The notes under the pieces are model-generated. The model did no database searches, was not told where the DNA came from, and worked only from the letters and a program-made list of their open reading frames with translations. The translations under genes were made by a program, and so were the position numbers. Below are positions 3,413-39,059 of a stretch of 43,651 bases of DNA, piece by piece. Origin of the DNA: Alphaproteobacteria bacterium (GTDB lineage: Bacteria > Pseudomonadota > Alphaproteobacteria > GCA-2731375); NCBI GenBank assembly GCA_030747035.1, contig JASLLM010000009.1, forward strand, positions 1 through 43,651. The letters are read 5' to 3'. Numbering within the stretch: the stretch's first letter is position 1; each line of letters begins with the position of its first letter.

Positions 3413-5503
3413 ATGGCAAAGTTTAGAGTAGGTGCCGATATTGGCGGCACATTCACCGACCTGGTGCTATTGGGTCAGGACGGCACCCTGCATACCAAGA
3501 AAGTCTCTTCCACGGTCGGTGAATACGAAGCTGCCATCGTCGATGGCCTGTCCAGCGTCTTCGAGAGCGCCGGTTTGAACGCGGCGCAGATCGAGGAAGT
3601 GCTGCACGGTACCACGGTCGCCTCCAATGCCATTCTTGAACACAAGGGCGCCAAGACCGGCCTGATCACCACCGAAGGTTTCCGCGACGTGCTGGAAATC
3701 CGCACCCTGCGCATGCCCCGCCTGTACGATTTGCATTGGGAAAAACCACCGCCCCTGGCGGAGCGCTATTTGCGCCTGGGCGTCAACGAACGGGTCAATA
3801 ACAAGGGCGAAGTGGAAATCCCCCTGGATCTGGATGAGGTTGAGCGGGTGGTGCGCCGGTTGCTGGACGAGAATGTGGAGACAATCGCTGTCTGCCTGAT
3901 CAACTCCTACACCAATGCAGATCACGAACGTGCCATCAAGGCGGTGATTGAGCGCCTGGCGCCTGATCTGCTGCATTGCATTTCCGCCGATGTGCTGCCG
4001 GAGATTTCCGAGTATCAGCGCACCTCCACCACGGTGATCAACGCCTATGTCATGCCCATCGTCAGCCAATATTTGCGCCAGTTGAGCGCACGTCTGAAAG
4101 GCGCGGCGATTGATGCGCCGCTATTGCTGATGCAATCTAACGGCGGCCTGATCAGCGCCGAGGTGTCGGAGCGTAAACCGGCCAATATCATCGAATCCGG
4201 ACCCGCCGGCGGCGTCGTCGGGGCCCAGGCCCTGGCGCGCAAGCTGGATCTGCCCGATATCATTACTTTCGATATGGGCGGCACAACGGCCAAGGCCTCG
4301 TTGGTGGAGGACGGCGAATTTACCCGCAGCCTGGATTACCAGGTGGGCGGCGGCATCATGATCGGCTCCCGCCTGATGAGCGGTGCGGGCTATCATCTGA
4401 AGATACCGGCCATTGACCTGGCCGAGGTTGGTGCGGGCGGCGGCTCCCTGGTCTGGATCGATGCCGGCGGCTCCATGCAGGTCGGCCCGCAAAGCGCCGG
4501 CGCGGTGCCCGGACCGGTCTGCTATGGCATGGGCGGGGAGGATCCCACCGTCACGGACGCCAATGTCCTTCTGGGCTATTTGAACCCGGACTATCTGGTC
4601 GGTGGCGAATTGCCCCTGCAGGCCGACAAAGGCCGCGCCGTGTTCGAGGAACGGATCGCCGGGCCCATGGGGCTGGAGCTGGCGCATGCCGCCCATGGCG
4701 CGCATCAGATCGTCATTTCCAACATGATCCGCGCCATCCGCGCCATTTCCAGCGAACGGGGGCGTGACCCGCGCGATTATGCCCTGTTCGCCTTCGGCGG
4801 CAACGGGCCGCTGTTCGCCGCCGGCATGGCCAAGGCGCTGGATATGAAGCGTATCGTGGTGCCGCCCCATCCGGGCCTGTTCTCCTCATTTGGCCTGCTT
4901 TATGCGGATGTGGAGCATCATTATTCCCGTTCCATGATGGAGGTTTTGCGTGAAGCTACGCCGGGCGCCTTGAACGAGATCTGGGGCGGCCTGGAGCAGG
5001 AGGCCCGCGAACAACTGGCCGCCGACGGCTACCGCCCCGACCAAATCGACATCCGCCGTTCCGCCAACATGCACTACAAGGGCCAGATCTTCGAACTAAC
5101 GGTTCCGGCCCCGGATGGTGATTTCGACGCCGAAAAAATCGCCGAGCTGGAGGAACGCTTCGGCCAGGAGCATGAACGCACCTATGGCCACCGCGCCGGC
5201 CCGGAAGAGCCGGTAATGCTGGTCAACGCACAGCTAATAGGCCGGGCCATTCCAGATCATCCGCCCGTGCCCGACCGACTGCAGGGCATGGACGCGCGGG
5301 CGGCAGCGGAAACCGGCAGCCGTCGAGCCTACTTCGGACCGGAGTTGGGCTGGCGGGAGGCACGGGTGCTGACCCGCGCCGATCTGGCCGCCGAGCAGAC
5401 CGGGCCGCTGATCGTGGAGGAATACGATGCCACCTGCCTGGTACCGCCCGACGCAAGGGCCAGGCAGGACGATTTCGGTAACATCATTGTCGAGCTGGAT
5501 TAA
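3413..5503 (+). CDS. hyuA: Hydantoinase A / 5-oxoprolinase family subunit
   Basis: 696 residues with the complete hydantoinase A architecture. The N-terminal actin-like ATPase half opens with GADIGGTFTDLVL and has HGTTVASNAILEHKGAKTG and TTEGFRDVLEI. The central domain has ESGPAGGVVGA, FDMGGTTAKASLV and GAGGGSLVWID. FAFGGNGPLFA (~460) precedes the C-terminal domain. This subunit binds and hydrolyses ATP to phosphorylate the lactam or ketone substrate used by HyuB. It follows hyuB by 3 bp. The 3' end overlaps the 3' end of the convergent FkbM-like gene by 4 bp, so no separate terminator fits between them. Confidence 0.94.
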   Translation: MAKFRVGADIGGTFTDLVLLGQDGTLHTKKVSSTVGEYEAAIVDGLSSVFESAGLNAAQIEEVLHGTTVASNAILEHKGAKTGLITTEGFRDVLEIRTLRMPRLYDLHWEKPPPLAERYLRLGVNERVNNKGEVEIPLDLDEVERVVRRLLDENVETIAVCLINSYTNADHERAIKAVIERLAPDLLHCISADVLPEISEYQRTSTTVINAYVMPIVSQYLRQLSARLKGAAIDAPLLLMQSNGGLISAEVSERKPANIIESGPAGGVVGAQALARKLDLPDIITFDMGGTTAKASLVEDGEFTRSLDYQVGGGIMIGSRLMSGAGYHLKIPAIDLAEVGAGGGSLVWIDAGGSMQVGPQSAGAVPGPVCYGMGGEDPTVTDANVLLGYLNPDYLVGGELPLQADKGRAVFEERIAGPMGLELAHAAHGAHQIVISNMIRAIRAISSERGRDPRDYALFAFGGNGPLFAAGMAKALDMKRIVVPPHPGLFSSFGLLYADVEHHYSRSMMEVLREATPGALNEIWGGLEQEAREQLAADGYRPDQIDIRRSANMHYKGQIFELTVPAPDGDFDAEKIAELEERFGQEHERTYGHRAGPEEPVMLVNAQLIGRAIPDHPPVPDRLQGMDARAAAETGSRRAYFGPELGWREARVLTRADLAAEQTGPLIVEEYDATCLVPPDARARQDDFGNIIVELD

Positions 5504-32000: not shown

Positions 32001-35000
32001 CCGATTTATTGGAACATCTGCGCCAGGAGGTGCTGCTTTGTGACGGCGCCATGGGCAGCCGTCTGCAACAGGCCGATCTGGATATCGAAATCGACTATCG
32101 GGGCCAGGAAAACTGTTCCGAGGTGTTGAACCTGAGCCGCCCCGACATCGTCCGCGAAATTCAGCAGGGTTTCGTCGCCGCCGGTGCCGATATCATTCTG
32201 ACCAATACTTTTGGCGGCTCGCCGATCACCCTTGATGAATTCAATCTGGGCGATCAGGCCCATGCAATCAACAAGCGGGCAGGCGAACTGGCGCGGGAAT
32301 CCATTGAAGCCTTCCACCGCGATGGCATCTCCCGCTATGTCCTGGGCGATATCGGGCCGGGCACCAAACTGCCCAGCCTGGGCCAGATCGATTATGACGA
32401 GTTGGAAGCGGCCTTGGCGGTGCAATCGGCCGGCCTTTTGGCGGGTGGCGTTGACGGCATCATGATCGAGACGGTGCAGGATATTCTGCAGCTGAAGGCC
32501 GCCGTAAACGGCGCCCGCATCGCCATGGCGGAGGCCGGACGAGAGGTGCCCCTGCTGACCCAAGTCACGGTGGAGACCACGGGAACCCTGTTGGTGGGGA
32601 CCGATATCGCCGGCGCGGCGATGACAATTCATGCCTTGGGTATCGAGGCCATGGGCCTCAATTGCGCCACCGGTCCGCGCGGGATGGCGGAGCATGTGGG
32701 CTGGCTGTCGGAACAATGGCCCGGCATCATCTCGGTCATGCCCAACGCGGGCCTACCGGAATTGGTCGATGGCAAGCCGAGTTATCCTCTGTCGCCGGAG
32801 GAGCTGGCCGATTGGGCCCGGCGTTTCGTGGTCGAGGATGGCGTCAATCTGGTGGGCGGCTGCTGCGGCACCATTGCCACCCATATCAAGGCGCTGAATG
32901 ACATGCTGGAGTCGATTGGCCAGGAACAGGGTGGGGGCCGCCGGCCCAAGCCAGCGGCACGGCAATCCGAATGGGTGCCGGGCATATCCTCCTTGTATGG
33001 CCAGGTGCCGTATCGGCAGGAAAACGCCTATCTCTCCATTGGCGAACGCTGCAATGCCAATGGCTCGAAAAAGTTCCGCGAATTGCAGGATGCCGAGGAT
33101 TGGGACGGCTGCATCGCCATGGGGCGGGAGCAGGCCAAGGAAGGCTCCCACACCCTGGACATCTGCACCGCTTTCGTGGGCCGGGACGAGTTGGCTGATA
33201 TGAGCGCGGTGGTCAGCCGCATGCGCGGCTCGGTACATGCACCGCTGGTGATCGATTCCACTGAATATCCGGTCCTCGAAGGCGCCCTGAAGCTGTATGG
33301 CGGCAAGGCCTTGATCAATTCCATCAATTTCGAGGACGGCGAGGAACCGGCGGCGAAGCGCCTGCAATTGGCGCGTAAGTTCGGCTGTGGCGTGATCGCC
33401 CTGACCATTGATGAAGAGGGCATGGCCAAGACCACCGAGGATAAGGTTAGGCTGGCCCATCGTCTGCATGACTACGCGGTCAACGAGCACGGCATGGCGC
33501 CGGAGGATCTGCTGTTTGATCCGCTGACCTTCACCATTTGCACCGGCAACGACGATGACCGGCGCCTGGGCCTGGAAACCCTGGACGCGATCGAGCGGAT
33601 CGCCAAGGAACTGCCCGATTGTCAGATTATTCTGGGTCTTTCCAATATCTCATTTGGCCTGAAGCTGGCGGCCCGCCATGTCTTGAATTCGGTCTTTCTG
33701 CAGCATGCCCTGGACCGGGGCATGACCGGCGCCATCGTGCATTTGTCCAAGATCAGGCCGCTGCATTCCATTCCGGCGGAGGAGGTCAAGGCGGCGGAGG
33801 ACCTGATCTATGACCGCCGCGCCGAGGGCTACGATCCCCTGCATGCCTTCATCGCCCTGTTCCAGGACCGCAAGGCGCCCTCCAAGGAGGAAAAAGTCCA
33901 GCCGGCGGAGGTTGAGGAACGCCTGAAACAGCGCATTGTCGATGGCGACCGCCCCGGCCTGGAAGAAGATCTGGACGAGGCCATGACGAAGTATCCGCCG
34001 CTGGATATCGTCAACAATATCCTGCTGGACGGCATGAAGGTGGTCGGCGAATTGTTCGGCTCCGGCCAGATGCAGCTGCCGTTCGTGCTGCAATCGGCGG
34101 AGACCATGAAGGCCTCCGTGGCGCATCTTGAACCGCATATGGAACGTAGCGCCGATAGCCAGAAGGGCACCATCGTGCTGGCCACGGTCAAGGGCGATGT
34201 ACATGACATCGGCAAGAACCTGGTCGATATCATCCTCTCCAACAACGGTTACCGGGTGGTCAATATCGGCATCAAGCAGCCGGTCGGCGCGATCATCGAG
34301 GCGGCCAAGGAGCACGATGCCGACGCCATCGGCATGTCCGGACTGCTGGTCAAGTCAACCACCATCATGCGCGAAAATCTCGAGGAGATGTGCCGCCAGC
34401 AGGTTCATTTGCCGGTGATGCTGGGCGGTGCCGCCCTGACCCGCAATTTCGTCGAGGAGGATTGCGCCCGGGCCTACGAGGCGGCCTCGGGCCGGGTCGC
34501 CTACGCCCGTGACGCCTTCGACGGCCTGGATCTGATGGCCAGGGTCACGGACGGCAACTTCGATGATTACATCACCGAACGGGACAGCAAGCGCGCGGAC
34601 AAACCCACCAACAAACGGCGCAAACTGGGCCAGCCGACTCTAATGCCCCGGCCCTTGGATCTGGAAGAGGTCCGGACCCGGCGTGAGGAACTTCGTAAGG
34701 GCGTGGCCGTGCCCGAAGCGCCATTTTTTGGCCACCGTATGATCGAACAGGTCGGGATCAAGTCCCTGCTGCCCTATCTGAACGAGCGCATGCTGTATCA
34801 ATTCCACTGGGGCTACCGCAAACGGGGCCGTAAACTGGCGGAATACATGGAATGGGCCCGTGGCGAGGTTAAGCCGATCATGACCGACCTGGTAGCCCGC
34901 TGCGAGGCCGAGGATATTCTGCGGCCGCAGGCGGTCTATGGCTATTTTCCCGCCGCCTCCGAAGGCGATGACCTGGTGCTGTTCGGCCCCAATGGAGATG

Positions 35001-35500
35001 ACGAGGTGGCTCGTTTTGCCCTGCCGCGGCAGAACCGCGCGGGCGGTCTGTGCATCGCCGATTTCTTCCGCGAGGCCGATAGTGGCGAGCGGGATGTGAT
35101 CGCCCTGCAGGCGGTCACCATCGGCCAGCATGCCTCGGAAGTGGCGCGGCAATGGTTCGATGACGACAAGTATCAGGACTATCTGTACCTGCACGGCCTG
35201 GGCGTGGAGATGGCCGAGGCCATGGCCGAATATGTCCACAAACGGGTGCGGGCGGAGCTGGGCTTCGGTGATCAGGATGCCCGCGACAATGATGCCCTGT
35301 TGAACCAGGGCTATCGCGGCTCGCGCTATTCCTTTGGCTATCCGGCCTGCCCGACCATGTCGGATCAGCGCAAGATACTGGAACTGCTGGACGCGGACCG
35401 GATCGGTCTGGTCATGGGCGACGAGGATCAGCTACATCCCGAACAGTCCACCTCCGCCATCATCGTGCATCACCCGCAGGCGAAGTATTTCAGCGTTTGA
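31997..35500 (+). CDS. metH: Cobalamin-dependent methionine synthase
   Basis: 1167 residues, full-length multi-domain enzyme. The homocysteine-binding barrel (~1-310) has CDGAMGS and zinc ligands C223 (LNCATGP), C289 and C290 (GGCCGT). The methyl-THF (pterin) domain follows (GERCNANGSKKFREL, HTLDICTAF). The cobalamin domain has KGDVHDIGKNL with H736 as the lower cobalt ligand. The reactivation domain ends with GSRYSFGYPACPTMSD and LHPEQSTSA, a form seen in actinobacterial-type enzymes. It transfers the methyl group from methyl-THF to homocysteine. It overlaps metF by ATGA. Confidence 0.97.
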   Translation: MTDLLEHLRQEVLLCDGAMGSRLQQADLDIEIDYRGQENCSEVLNLSRPDIVREIQQGFVAAGADIILTNTFGGSPITLDEFNLGDQAHAINKRAGELARESIEAFHRDGISRYVLGDIGPGTKLPSLGQIDYDELEAALAVQSAGLLAGGVDGIMIETVQDILQLKAAVNGARIAMAEAGREVPLLTQVTVETTGTLLVGTDIAGAAMTIHALGIEAMGLNCATGPRGMAEHVGWLSEQWPGIISVMPNAGLPELVDGKPSYPLSPEELADWARRFVVEDGVNLVGGCCGTIATHIKALNDMLESIGQEQGGGRRPKPAARQSEWVPGISSLYGQVPYRQENAYLSIGERCNANGSKKFRELQDAEDWDGCIAMGREQAKEGSHTLDICTAFVGRDELADMSAVVSRMRGSVHAPLVIDSTEYPVLEGALKLYGGKALINSINFEDGEEPAAKRLQLARKFGCGVIALTIDEEGMAKTTEDKVRLAHRLHDYAVNEHGMAPEDLLFDPLTFTICTGNDDDRRLGLETLDAIERIAKELPDCQIILGLSNISFGLKLAARHVLNSVFLQHALDRGMTGAIVHLSKIRPLHSIPAEEVKAAEDLIYDRRAEGYDPLHAFIALFQDRKAPSKEEKVQPAEVEERLKQRIVDGDRPGLEEDLDEAMTKYPPLDIVNNILLDGMKVVGELFGSGQMQLPFVLQSAETMKASVAHLEPHMERSADSQKGTIVLATVKGDVHDIGKNLVDIILSNNGYRVVNIGIKQPVGAIIEAAKEHDADAIGMSGLLVKSTTIMRENLEEMCRQQVHLPVMLGGAALTRNFVEEDCARAYEAASGRVAYARDAFDGLDLMARVTDGNFDDYITERDSKRADKPTNKRRKLGQPTLMPRPLDLEEVRTRREELRKGVAVPEAPFFGHRMIEQVGIKSLLPYLNERMLYQFHWGYRKRGRKLAEYMEWARGEVKPIMTDLVARCEAEDILRPQAVYGYFPAASEGDDLVLFGPNGDDEVARFALPRQNRAGGLCIADFFREADSGERDVIALQAVTIGQHASEVARQWFDDDKYQDYLYLHGLGVEMAEAMAEYVHKRVRAELGFGDQDARDNDALLNQGYRGSRYSFGYPACPTMSDQRKILELLDADRIGLVMGDEDQLHPEQSTSAIIVHHPQAKYFSV

Positions 35501-35527
35501 GTTTTCTGTCTGTTGCTGAACCACCCG

Positions 35528-36079
35528 CTAAACCGGATCGGCGTCGATCAGGACGCCGGCCAGGACGGCGGGTTCGTCGCCGTGATTGACCCAGGCATGA
35601 TTGGTGCCGCGCTGGATCACCACGTCCATTGGTTCCATCGCGACCTCACCATCATCCAGGATCAGGCTGACCTGGCCCGATAGCAGGATGATGTAGTCGA
35701 CCGTGTCGGTCTTGTGCATGCCGGGTTGGGAGGAGGCGCTGTCGTGCGCGGAGGTGGCCCCCATCTTGGCAAAATTCTCCGCATCGCGCCGGGCCCTCTC
35801 CTCGGGGGATATCTCGGCATCCCAGGCCGCCGGTCTGATCTGAAAGAAACGAAAGACGCTGCCCTGGCAGGGCGGCGACAGGGTGACCTGGGTATCGGCG
35901 GCATCGGCATTGCCGCTGTTGTCCGCCGGTGTCGCGAAACTGCGCCATAGATCCGTCAGGCCACGGCCTTCCTGGGTCGGGTTTTCCAGGACATGTGGCG
36001 AGGGGCCGTCTTGGAGGATAATCGATTTGCCTTTGTCGTCGTGGCCGGTAACGATCCGGCGGACCGGTCTTAACATCAT
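35528..36079 (-). CDS. Cupin-domain protein
   Basis: 183 residues from the ATG at 36079 (a second ATG lies 3 bp further in), both near AGGGAGAGG. The C-terminal half shows a small cupin barrel: HKTDTVDYIILLSGQVSLIL, then VAMEPMDVVIQRGTNHAW and GDEPAVLAGVLID. The metal-binding histidines are partly present (H in MHKTD and NHAW). The N-terminal half (RPVRRIVTGHDDKGKS) resembles the region found before such cupins in alphaproteobacteria. Enzyme activity is unknown. It converges on metH. Confidence 0.7.
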   Translation of the reverse strand: MMLRPVRRIVTGHDDKGKSIILQDGPSPHVLENPTQEGRGLTDLWRSFATPADNSGNADAADTQVTLSPPCQGSVFRFFQIRPAAWDAEISPEERARRDAENFAKMGATSAHDSASSQPGMHKTDTVDYIILLSGQVSLILDDGEVAMEPMDVVIQRGTNHAWVNHGDEPAVLAGVLIDADPV

Positions 36080-36139
36080 GCCTCTCCCTGAATTTCGCGG
36101 CAATCAGGGTGGCATGAAACGGCCTATCCCGAAACGCAA

Positions 36140-36177
36140 AAAAACCCCGTGTGCCCTTCAGACATCACGGGGTTTTT
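36140..36177. terminator. Bidirectional terminator-like hairpin
   Basis: AAAAACCCCGTG and CACGGGGTTTTT form a perfect 12-bp stem with a 14-nt loop. With the extra A residues to the left it gives a T-run on the minus strand, and CTTTTT on the plus strand. On the minus strand it ends the compact unit at 36165-36365, and perhaps trkH readthrough. Confidence 0.85.
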
Positions 36178-36233
36178 CTTTTTGATCCAATGGGGCTTGG
36201 CCACAGCACACTTTTTTTGGTCTGTCGATCCAT
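36165..36233 (-). CDS. Possible 22-residue peptide (MDRQTKKSVLWPS...)
   Basis: A 23-codon minus-strand frame starts ATGGATCGACAG at 36233, directly behind GAGAGGTGGGG. It encodes a basic peptide beginning MDRQTKKSVLWPSP and ending SKRKTP. Its stop codon lies in the first arm of the terminator hairpin (36140-36177). A promoter-like pair at 36338-36365 would give a transcript of ~190 nt. So this may be a small gene, a leader peptide, or an RNA whose frame is fortuitous. No known family recognised. Confidence 0.4.
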   Translation of the reverse strand: MDRQTKKSVLWPSPIGSKRKTP

Positions 36234-36337
36234 CCCCACCTCTCGATCACGAGACCGAGTTTTGGTTCGTTCCAAATGGTCAGGTGGCGTTTCGTTCAAT
36301 CGCCTCTCCCATTTCTTTGCGATGAAAAAACGCTACG

Positions 36338-36365
36338 ACATTATGTCAAATGACGCAAGTGGCAA
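36338..36365 (-). promoter_or_regulatory. Sigma-70-like promoter of a small transcript
   Basis: On the minus strand TTGCCA, a 16-bp spacer and TAATGT lie downstream of trkH and ~160 bp before the terminator hairpin. The unit between them holds only the small frame at 36165-36233 and hairpin-forming sequence. Confidence 0.4.
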
Positions 36366-36411
36366 ATTGCGATTGTGATCGCCCCGGACGCGGCGCGGTA
36401 CCAATCTGATG

Positions 36412-37860
36412 TTAGCCGCGCCAGAAGGTGCGGGAGAACAGGACAATCACGGTCAGCAGTTCCAACCGGCCCAGCAGCATACCCGCCGCCAACAGCCATT
36501 TTGCCATGTCGGGCAGCGGCGCGAAGGTGCCCGAGGGCCCGATCACATCGCCCAGGCCCGGGCCCACATTGGCGATGGCGGTACCGGCACCGGATACCGC
36601 GGTCAGAAAATCCAGGCCCATCAGGCTGAGCGCCACCGCCAGCACGGCAAAACTAAGGGCGAAAAGGAAAAAGAAACTCATCACCGAATCCATCACCGAG
36701 TCCGGAATGGGCCGGCGGTTGAAGTTGGCGACGAAGACGCCGTGGGGCTGCAACAGACGGCCCATCTGCGTGCGGGCGGCGGCATAGAGCACCTGAAAGC
36801 GGAAGATCTTGATGCCGCAGGTGGTCGAACCGGCGCAGCCGCCGATACACATCACAAAGAAGAACAGCACCACGGCGAAGCCGCCCCATTGGCCGTAGTC
36901 ATCGGTGGCGTAGCCGGTACCGGTCAGGATCGAGGTTACATTGAAAGCGGTGAACCGCACCGCCTGGCCCAGTGCGACGTCATTGCCGCCAACCTGCCAC
37001 AGGGTCATGCCGGCAATCGCTGCGAACAATATGGCGAAAAACCAGCGCACCTGGCTGTCCCGCCACAGCGCCAGGGGGCGGCCGCGCAGGACCTGAAAAT
37101 ACAGCAGGAACGGCAGGCTGCCGATGATCATGAAGGCGGTGGCGGTGTAGTCTATCAAGGCGCTGTCATAAATCCCGATGGAGGCGTCGGAGGTGGAAAA
37201 GCCGCCCGTGGCAATGGTGGTCATGGCATGCGCCGCCGCCTCGAACGGCGGCATGCCCGCGGCCCAGTAGACCAGGGCGCAAATGACCGACAGCGACAAA
37301 TAGATAACGCTGATGGTGCCGGCGATCTGGGCCGTGCGCGGCAGAACCTTTTCCGAGGCGTCCGAGCCTTCCATGCGGAACAGCTGCATCCCGCCGACCT
37401 GCAGAATGGGCAGAATGGCAACCGCGGTGACGATGATGCCGATGCCCCCCATCCATTGCAGCAGGGCGCGCCAGATCAGAATGCCGGGCGGTGCCTGCTC
37501 CAGCCCCGAAATCACCGTTGAACCGGTGGTGGTGATGCCGGACATGGCCTCGAAAAAGGCGTCCGTGTAGCTGAGGTGAAGGTCCGAAAAGGCAAACGGC
37601 AGGGCGGCGAAGGTTGGCGTCACGACCCAGATGGACGTGGTCAGGACAAACGCCTGGCGCAGCTGCAGATCCCCGCCGCTGCCCCAGCAGGTGATACTGA
37701 GGGCACCGCCGACAAAGCCGGTCAGGAATGCGGCCACCAGGAATACCTGCCAGTCCGGGTGACCGACCCGGGCATCCAGCAATGCCGGCACCAACATGGC
37801 GACGCCGAGAATCAAGAGCAATATGCCGTTGACCAGGAAAACCGCCCGATATTCCCTCAT
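36412..37860 (-). CDS. trkH: TrkH-family potassium uptake protein
   Basis: 482 residues, normal TrkH length, almost wholly hydrophobic. The four selectivity-filter loops of the SKT superfamily are visible: SGITTTGSTV, TTIATGGFS, ILTGTGYA and IANVGPGLG. A conserved GGCAGSTTCGIK segment follows the third. It imports K+ across the inner membrane with a cytosolic TrkA-type NAD-binding partner, which is not in the window. The gene starts 11 bp after the CaiB-like gene ends, so they may share a transcript even though their functions look unrelated. Confidence 0.95.
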   Translation of the reverse strand: MREYRAVFLVNGILLLILGVAMLVPALLDARVGHPDWQVFLVAAFLTGFVGGALSITCWGSGGDLQLRQAFVLTTSIWVVTPTFAALPFAFSDLHLSYTDAFFEAMSGITTTGSTVISGLEQAPPGILIWRALLQWMGGIGIIVTAVAILPILQVGGMQLFRMEGSDASEKVLPRTAQIAGTISVIYLSLSVICALVYWAAGMPPFEAAAHAMTTIATGGFSTSDASIGIYDSALIDYTATAFMIIGSLPFLLYFQVLRGRPLALWRDSQVRWFFAILFAAIAGMTLWQVGGNDVALGQAVRFTAFNVTSILTGTGYATDDYGQWGGFAVVLFFFVMCIGGCAGSTTCGIKIFRFQVLYAAARTQMGRLLQPHGVFVANFNRRPIPDSVMDSVMSFFFLFALSFAVLAVALSLMGLDFLTAVSGAGTAIANVGPGLGDVIGPSGTFAPLPDMAKWLLAAGMLLGRLELLTVIVLFSRTFWRG

Positions 37861-37871
37861 GGCCGCGGTCT

Positions 37872-39059
37872 CTAATCTTCCGGCGCAAGCCGCACGGCAC
37901 CCGCCGCGGCCAATTGATCGATCTTTCCCTCGTCATAGCCCAATTCGGCGAGCACCCGCCGGCCATGCTGGCCAAGGGTCGGCGCCTGCTGGCCGGGATC
38001 GTCGGGATCGATGGGCGCGGTGCCGGGAATCTGGGCCAATGGTATCATGCCCATGCCTGGCTGGGTCATCGTCTGGAAAGCCTTGGTCGCGACCACATGG
38101 GGATCCGCCATCCAGTCGCCATAGTCGGCGACGGCATGGGCTAGAACCCCGGCCTCCTTGAAACGTGCCGACCATTCCGCCGTTGTATGTTGCAGCAGGA
38201 TCTCCTGCACTGAGGGGCCCAGGCTGTCCATGTGCTGGGCCCGGCCGGCAAAATCCCTGTAGCGGGGATCATCGGCCAGGGCCGGCTGGCCCAGGGCCAG
38301 GCAAAGTTGTTTATACTGCTCTTCCTTGACCAGGGTGACGGCGATGAAGCCGTCCTGGGTGTTGTAGCAGCCCGCCGGCGCATTGTTCGATGCCGAGATC
38401 CCGCCTTCGAGATGAAAATCCGCGATTTTGGAGGTTTGCAACGCCGCCGCCGCCTGCATCAGGCTGCAATCGATCAAGCGGCCCTCCGGCTCGTCCCGGC
38501 GCGCATACAGGGCCGTGGACAATGCCTGATAGGCATACAGCGCGGTGACGCAATCGATGATGAAATGATTCAGGCGGTGCGGCATTTCGTCGTTGCCCCG
38601 GTTGATGGACATCAGCCCCGAAAACGCCTGCACCACCGTGTCGGTGGCGGGCTCGGACGCATAGGGGCCGTCCTGGCCATAGCCGCTGACCGAGAGATAG
38701 ATGACACCGGGATTAAGCTTGCGCACATCCTCATAGCCCAGGCCGAAACGGCCGCAGACACCGGGCCGGAAACCTTCGATGAAGACATCGCATTCGGCCG
38801 CCAGGTCCTGGGCTATGGACAGCCCGCCCGGGTTTTTCAGATCAAGGACAATGCTTTTCTTGCCCCGGTTGGCGGTCATGGAAATTGTCGAATGATCGCC
38901 ATAGACCTGGCCCAGGCCGCGGGCCCAGTCGCCTTCGGGCGGCTCCACCTTGGTGATATCGGCGCCGTATTGGGCCAACAACTCGGCACAATAGGGACCG
39001 GCATAGCCTTGGCTCAAATCCAGAACCTTCAGGCCACTGAATGGTTTTTCGTAGCTCAT
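37872..39059 (-). CDS. CaiB/BaiF family CoA-transferase (class III)
   Basis: 395 residues, the standard length. Signatures are LKVLDLSQGYAGPYCAELLA, GADITKVEPPEGDWAR, DVFIEGFRPGV, YLSVSGYGQDGPY and FIIDCVTALYAYQALSTAL with D169 at the position of the catalytic Asp. The C-terminus has PAVL-like and LAELGYDE tails. Such enzymes move CoA between carboxylic acids such as formate/oxalate or carnitine. Substrates cannot be predicted. No acyl-CoA enzyme is directly adjacent; a MaoC-like hydratase lies further away (41892-42383). Confidence 0.92.
   Translation of the reverse strand: MSYEKPFSGLKVLDLSQGYAGPYCAELLAQYGADITKVEPPEGDWARGLGQVYGDHSTISMTANRGKKSIVLDLKNPGGLSIAQDLAAECDVFIEGFRPGVCGRFGLGYEDVRKLNPGVIYLSVSGYGQDGPYASEPATDTVVQAFSGLMSINRGNDEMPHRLNHFIIDCVTALYAYQALSTALYARRDEPEGRLIDCSLMQAAAALQTSKIADFHLEGGISASNNAPAGCYNTQDGFIAVTLVKEEQYKQLCLALGQPALADDPRYRDFAGRAQHMDSLGPSVQEILLQHTTAEWSARFKEAGVLAHAVADYGDWMADPHVVATKAFQTMTQPGMGMIPLAQIPGTAPIDPDDPGQQAPTLGQHGRRVLAELGYDEGKIDQLAAAGAVRLAPED

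Follow-up and report, generated by a model that had tools for sequence, protein, structure and literature searches.

A conserved, putatively non-coding RNA ahead of a cupin gene in one lineage of Alphaproteobacteria

The stretch of DNA analysed here (the window; 43,651 bases) comes from a draft genome of 4.3 Mb and 85% completeness (G000), in which it forms contig C351. On its minus strand, trkH (PF02386; 36412–37860) is followed by a compact RNA unit and then by a cupin gene (Cupin_2, PF07883; 35528–36079, with its start codon at 36079); beyond the cupin gene, a long frame on the opposite strand reads as a putative metH. We confirm that, on the minus strand of 36138–36358, a promoter-like block is followed by a structured stretch and then by an intrinsic terminator with a 12-bp stem. 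A preliminary description of the window had seen a promoter-like pair, a small frame and a 12-bp terminator stem aligned on this strand, with the stop of the frame inside the stem. These elements can all be read directly in the sequence, and the TGA at 36167–36165 does overlap the stem arm at 36177–36166. The RNA would be approximately 186 nucleotides (nt) in length (36138–36323), extending from a presumed start near A36323, placed from the position of the promoter, to the T run of the terminator; this stretch is conserved.

A blastn search with the gap sequence gave matches in 12 of 61 genomes, namely all 11 genomes of the genus (the window’s own included; G004 with only 40 bases) and G011, from another genus of the family. 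A covariance model of the RNA body (138 positions, built from 11 sequences) finds the RNA in 11 of the 15 genomes of the family, which are also the whole order as sampled: 10 of the 11 genus members and one of the four genomes from elsewhere in the family. The RNA of G011 is more diverged, and the model did not find the RNA in the other three family genomes. In a class-wide draw of 385 genomes, searched with stricter filters that lose weak matches, only the four genus members that it contained matched and none of the 381 others, which include one of the three family genomes without the RNA (G013). A pattern made from the two best-conserved segments, applied to the same draw, recovered these four genus members, together with single matches in G264 and G338 that we take for chance; its reversed control gave one match, in G138. 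Plasmid and phage records held no match to the RNA. There is one copy per genome, and the sole further match to the model (G008; 17 bits, E = 0.067) is at chance level.

Mean pairwise identity is 0.80 in the RNA body, compared with 0.37 in the upstream flank and 0.38 between the terminator and the cupin gene (means here and below are for ten genus members, with L011 and L012 left out). Conservation therefore reaches well beyond the terminator, a point on which the preliminary description had made its proposal depend: promoter block, body and terminator form one conserved unit, and a reading of promoter, terminator and gap made without tools led to a real conserved element. One locus is damaged (L025; contig C21 of G004, around 3700–3900), in that the RNA is reduced to its 3′ part, beside ambiguous bases and a hydrolase gene; this is probably an assembly fault and possibly a real deletion.

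The promoter-like block (36330–36358, minus strand), recognized from sequence, alignment and pattern search, comprises the hexamers TTGCGT (36358–36353) and TAGCGT (36335–36330) on either side of a 17-nt spacer, which holds the conserved TTTGACATAAT and a TTGACA at 36349–36344. We provisionally assign −35 and −10 to the two hexamers. A promoter scan for strict sigma-70 matches returned none in 34500–38000, compared with 1.1 in shuffles; the hexamers are therefore weak on their own, and without conservation a promoter here would not be convincing. Calibration on the upstream regions of 6S RNA genes and on the stretches before the two tRNA genes of the window was of no help in the assignment. 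Conservation is found in the block itself, which has a mean pairwise identity of 0.74 (ten genus members). An exact search of the 11 genus genomes with the block pattern TTGNNNNATTTKACATAATNNNNTAG, written TTGN4ATTTKACATAATN4TAG, gave a single occurrence per genome in nine of them, always before the RNA, and the reversed control gave no matches. The two genomes without the pattern are G004, with its damaged locus, and G009, which has TAA in place of TAG. A search for a regulon of the block, made with this exact pattern, gave no second site in the genus.

At the other end of the unit, the intrinsic terminator (36138–36177, minus strand) pairs the arms 36177–36166 and 36151–36140 in 12 perfect base pairs around a 14-nt loop, followed by seven T. 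A scan of both strands of the window for perfect stems of 9–15 pairs with loops of 3–20 nt, at least five G or C per arm and a run of five T picked out this site and no other; a standard terminator scanner with a loop limit of 8 did not report it. The CCCC/GGGG stem is kept, with a changing loop, in all 11 aligned sequences, and both A-CCCC/GGGG-T and G-CCCC/GGGG-C arms occur among them. Mean pairwise identity is 0.68 (ten genus members), and L011 has an interrupted T run (TTCGT). The predicted 3′ end of the RNA coincides with an intrinsic terminator, as it would in an sRNA gene. Read on the plus strand, the stem at 36140–36177 is almost equally good, with the T-rich run TTTTTCTTTTT, and it could also stop antisense transcription from the cupin side.

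Three hairpins are predicted between these boundaries from alignments of 11 of the 12 loci; L012 (G004) was left out because blastn aligned only a 40-base piece of its RNA, beside ambiguous bases. Hairpin 1 (36286–36304, minus strand) pairs GGCG (36304–36301) with CGCC (36289–36286); 93.2% of its cells are paired, no pair is changed on both sides and three of the four pairs are broken in one sequence. Hairpin 2 (36242–36259, minus strand; CTCGGTC-TCGT-GATCGAG, consensus CTCGRTC-TCGT-GRTCGAG) is paired in 100% of cells across the 11 sequences; one of its pairs shows a both-sided change (UG, UA, AU) and another a one-sided change (AU to GU). In hairpin 3 (36189–36240, minus strand; consensus RTGGGG.../...CCCCAYT plus an upper stem), GGTGGGG (36240–36234) faces CCCCATT (36195–36189) below the upper stem. 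By the pair count 98.7% of cells in the lower and 97.6% in the upper stem are paired, and two pairs are changed on both sides (AU/GC/GU and AU/UA/GC). An outer 5′ helix is poorly supported (78–85% paired, no both-sided change).

Over the whole structure 93.8% of cells are paired, compared with 28–42% when the partner is slid, a comparison that favours the structure, as the consensus of these very sequences supplied it. The pair count excludes the terminator, since MAFFT does not keep it in register. The covariation score of 0.129 (shuffled, 0.092) was reached by 1 of 500 shuffles and drops to 0.013–0.039 with the partner slid; related sequences can exceed shuffles without any structure. Seven cells are changed on both sides, compared with 2.6 in shuffles (reached by 1 of 500). 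The number of pairs with a both-sided change (three) does not stand above shuffles, 153 of 500 of which reach it, and the number of further pair types is reached by 88 of 500. We judge the case for a conserved paired structure to be good, resting on few events and with modest covariation; together with the lack of a coding signature described below, it fits an sRNA gene. With the terminator included, the folding energy of the window sequence has z = −4.5; without it the body has z = −1.5 (20 of 200 shuffles fold as well), and in three relatives the body has z = −2.3 to −3.3. Folding energy alone would be insufficient as proof of an RNA; as far as sequence can tell, the proof comes from conservation.

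Outside the well-supported stems, conservation is highest in CCACCTGACCA (36277–36287, minus strand), which is identical in the alignment of 11 sequences except for one base in L002 and one in L008. It is partly unpaired in predicted ensembles and is a candidate seed or protein site. Its exact complement occurs at 42 sites in the 11 genomes. Eight of these are the gene of the RNA itself and the other 34 compare with 28 for the reversed control, so that the complement is not clearly enriched.

The preliminary description had offered a small RNA or a 22-residue peptide as the product. The small RNA is supported, as a unit conserved among relatives; the peptide is rejected, as neither its start nor its frame nor its length is kept, and we judge the frame (36165–36233, minus strand) not to be a gene. 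It runs from ATG (36233–36231) to TGA (36167–36165), encodes MDRQTKKSVLWPSPIGSKRKTP and is preceded by GAGAGGTGGGG. The ATG is kept in 7 of the 11 aligned sequences, including that of the window, and lost in four; the frames that begin with it are 5, 22, 24, 24, 24, 25 and 55 residues in length, and their second half is read in different frames owing to small indels. A small protein could also start at an in-frame TTG (44 codons in the window), which lies behind the Shine–Dalgarno-like GGGAGAGG (AGGAGAGG in L002) in 10 aligned genus members and opens a frame of at least 22 codons in 8 of the 11 sequences, but this reading stops after 10 codons in the other three (L009, L010 and L011). A protein-coding frame is expected to show an excess of variable columns at codon position 3. 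Over 22 codons in the eight open sequences, the variable columns number 5, 5 and 6 at positions 1, 2 and 3, so that a coding signature is lacking. With the comparative test failing in this way, a small protein gene with either start is scarcely credible.

Rfam offers no name for the RNA. A cmscan of the window at the family cut-offs reported only two tRNAs, both elsewhere. At E ≤ 10, the region 36100–36400 gave 14 matches, all below cut-off, of which all but one (a 12-bit match outside the RNA) lie on or reach into the terminator hairpin; we reject these look-alikes (F6, isrJ, ncr1175, rdlD and the like). The RNA stretches of the 12 loci likewise gave nothing over cut-off at E ≤ 10, and further sub-threshold matches, together with a tRNA in L003, fall in other parts of the loci. 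The RNA is not covered by any Rfam 15 family. It resembles 6S RNA (RF00013) in being structured and of similar size (6S matches in the genus span 155–157 nt), but all 11 genus genomes have a separate 6S locus, which scores over the Rfam cut-off in three and below it, though recognisable, in eight, and we discard this identity. In L102–L112 the 6S RNA of the genus sits directly behind a coding frame that reads as zapA-like.

Ten genomes have both the RNA complete and the cupin gene assembled (G000, G002, G003 and G005–G011), and in each of them the RNA immediately precedes the cupin gene on the same strand, with 44–216 nt between the T run and the start codon. The remnant in G004 likewise precedes the cupin gene; in G001, in which the contig ends 105 bases past the RNA match, no cupin gene was found. 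The upstream neighbour varies. The window has trkH there, G005 (and, by reading, G004) an Abhydrolase_3 gene, and G010 (by reading, also G002, G003, G007, G008 and G011) an SDR gene; other sequence occupies the place in G001, G006 and G009. The named cupin-gene relatives belong to draft genomes that carry the label Rhodospirillaceae, Alphaproteobacteria or Proteobacteria, including SI072_bin90, SI072_bin164, BS150m-G9, casp150-mb.302 and Arabian10_MAG_43; we read these names as pointing to a marine origin. A second cupin relative, around 40% identical, is found elsewhere in G000, G002, G005 and G007 (L154–L157). As each genome has one strong match to the RNA model, these second relatives have no such RNA in front of them.

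The element might be no more than the 3′ untranslated region of the upstream gene (trkH in the window) with its terminator, and have no RNA of its own. Here, trkH does lie upstream on the same strand, and scans of the interval from its end to 36177 gave no further terminator-like site. This explanation is nevertheless very unlikely, as the upstream gene differs among genomes while promoter block, body and terminator stay, and mean identity drops to 0.37 once the promoter block is passed on its upstream side. The main rival to an sRNA gene is a cis-acting leader of the cupin gene, an attenuator or orphan riboswitch-like element, in which the promoter would drive the cupin mRNA, the folded RNA would decide on read-through and the short RNA would be an aborted transcript. 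The constant place and strand of the RNA before the cupin gene, next to an upstream side at which trkH, an alpha/beta hydrolase gene, an SDR gene and others alternate, are what such a leader would show, and the three family genomes that gave no match to the RNA also gave none to the cupin gene (E ≤ 1 × 10⁻¹⁰). Some of the sequences between the RNA and the gene can, in addition, form a hairpin over the cupin Shine–Dalgarno sequence. However, the short distance by itself lowers the chance of breaks between the two, and the tie could reflect cis regulation or the joint inheritance of two close neighbours. Distant cupin relatives outside the group (L034 and L035; 62% identity) are without the RNA.

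The RNA shares with terminator-type leaders (riboswitches and attenuators) a promoter, a folded RNA and a terminator, which in 10 of 10 genomes precede the cupin gene in the same orientation, but it differs from them in having neither a shared antiterminator nor a known aptamer. In predicted folds of prefixes of the 11 sequences, no antiterminator partner is common to all: the CCCC arm of the terminator pairs (p > 0.4) with a 5′ GGG in three, with the GGGG of hairpin 3 in one and with nearby bases in three, and has no clear partner in four. The stop therefore looks constitutive. No Rfam match exceeds its cut-off, and thus no known riboswitch family or aptamer is present. We regard the cis-acting leader as possible, if rather unlikely. 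Its more specific form is a new, orphan cis-regulatory RNA, recorded from a single family of marine Alphaproteobacteria, that would respond to a protein or small molecule (such as a ligand or product of the cupin protein, perhaps) and regulate the cupin gene through termination. We consider this form unlikely; a short RNA released by such an element could also act in trans.

We lean towards a lineage-specific, independently transcribed, non-coding regulatory sRNA gene. Comparison of the sequences shows a conserved promoter block, paired structure and terminator, no coding signal and a fixed place before the cupin gene, and the steps that follow are what we infer from them. RNA polymerase would start at the sigma-70-like promoter near 36330–36358 and transcribe an RNA of around 186 nt with three hairpins. 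Transcription would stop at the intrinsic terminator (36138–36177), with the hairpin and U tail protecting the 3′ end and probably offering Hfq a place, as in other sRNAs. The conserved, partly exposed CCACCUGACCA, which loosely resembles an anti-Shine–Dalgarno sequence, would most likely pair in trans with the start regions of target mRNAs, tuning their translation. Pairing of the RNA with the cupin leader gave no consistent signal, with 1 of 10 genomes below 0.05 against simple letter shuffles and with a duplex program that ignores internal folding.

Restriction to one lineage would not be unusual for such an RNA. Excerpts from a study of Rhizobiales (PMC3927594) describe 39 family models of Sinorhizobium meliloti sRNAs, 32 of them limited to Rhizobiaceae and many with conserved microsynteny; by this partial account, genus- or family-restricted sRNAs are common in Rhizobiales. 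The RNA described here is like those trans-encoded alphaproteobacterial families, as far as the excerpts describe them, in being intergenic, structured and lineage-restricted, as they often are. It differs in coming from another lineage, marine Alphaproteobacteria, and in having no Rfam match, and the likeness is to the families as a kind. Among the matches listed in our searches of open papers, in which the lineage name was not among the queries, there was no description of the RNA. As an sRNA, it is thus a new addition to a known kind, that of sRNAs restricted to one lineage. It adds a structured RNA family and a covariance model beyond Rfam 15 for marine Alphaproteobacteria that are known here from draft genomes only, and its tie to a single cupin gene is a testable lead on function.

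The interval between the terminator and the cupin gene has features of its own. A short block after the terminator recurs (CATGCGACCCTG in G001, CGTGCCACGCTA in G002 and CATGCAAGCCGA in G007) and is present even where the cupin start is 155–216 nt away (G002 and G007) or not reached (G001). By eye, it weakly suggests a separate cupin promoter, which would favour the sRNA over the leader; in some relatives it could instead pair with the cupin Shine–Dalgarno region. At 36073–36110 in the window, and at the same place in L025–L033, a hairpin that several relatives could form would cover the cupin Shine–Dalgarno sequence, and its stem seems to change on both sides (CATGCG/CGCATG in L026 compared with CGTGCG/CGCACG in L025). 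This hairpin may reflect translational control of the cupin gene or an overlap with a promoter.
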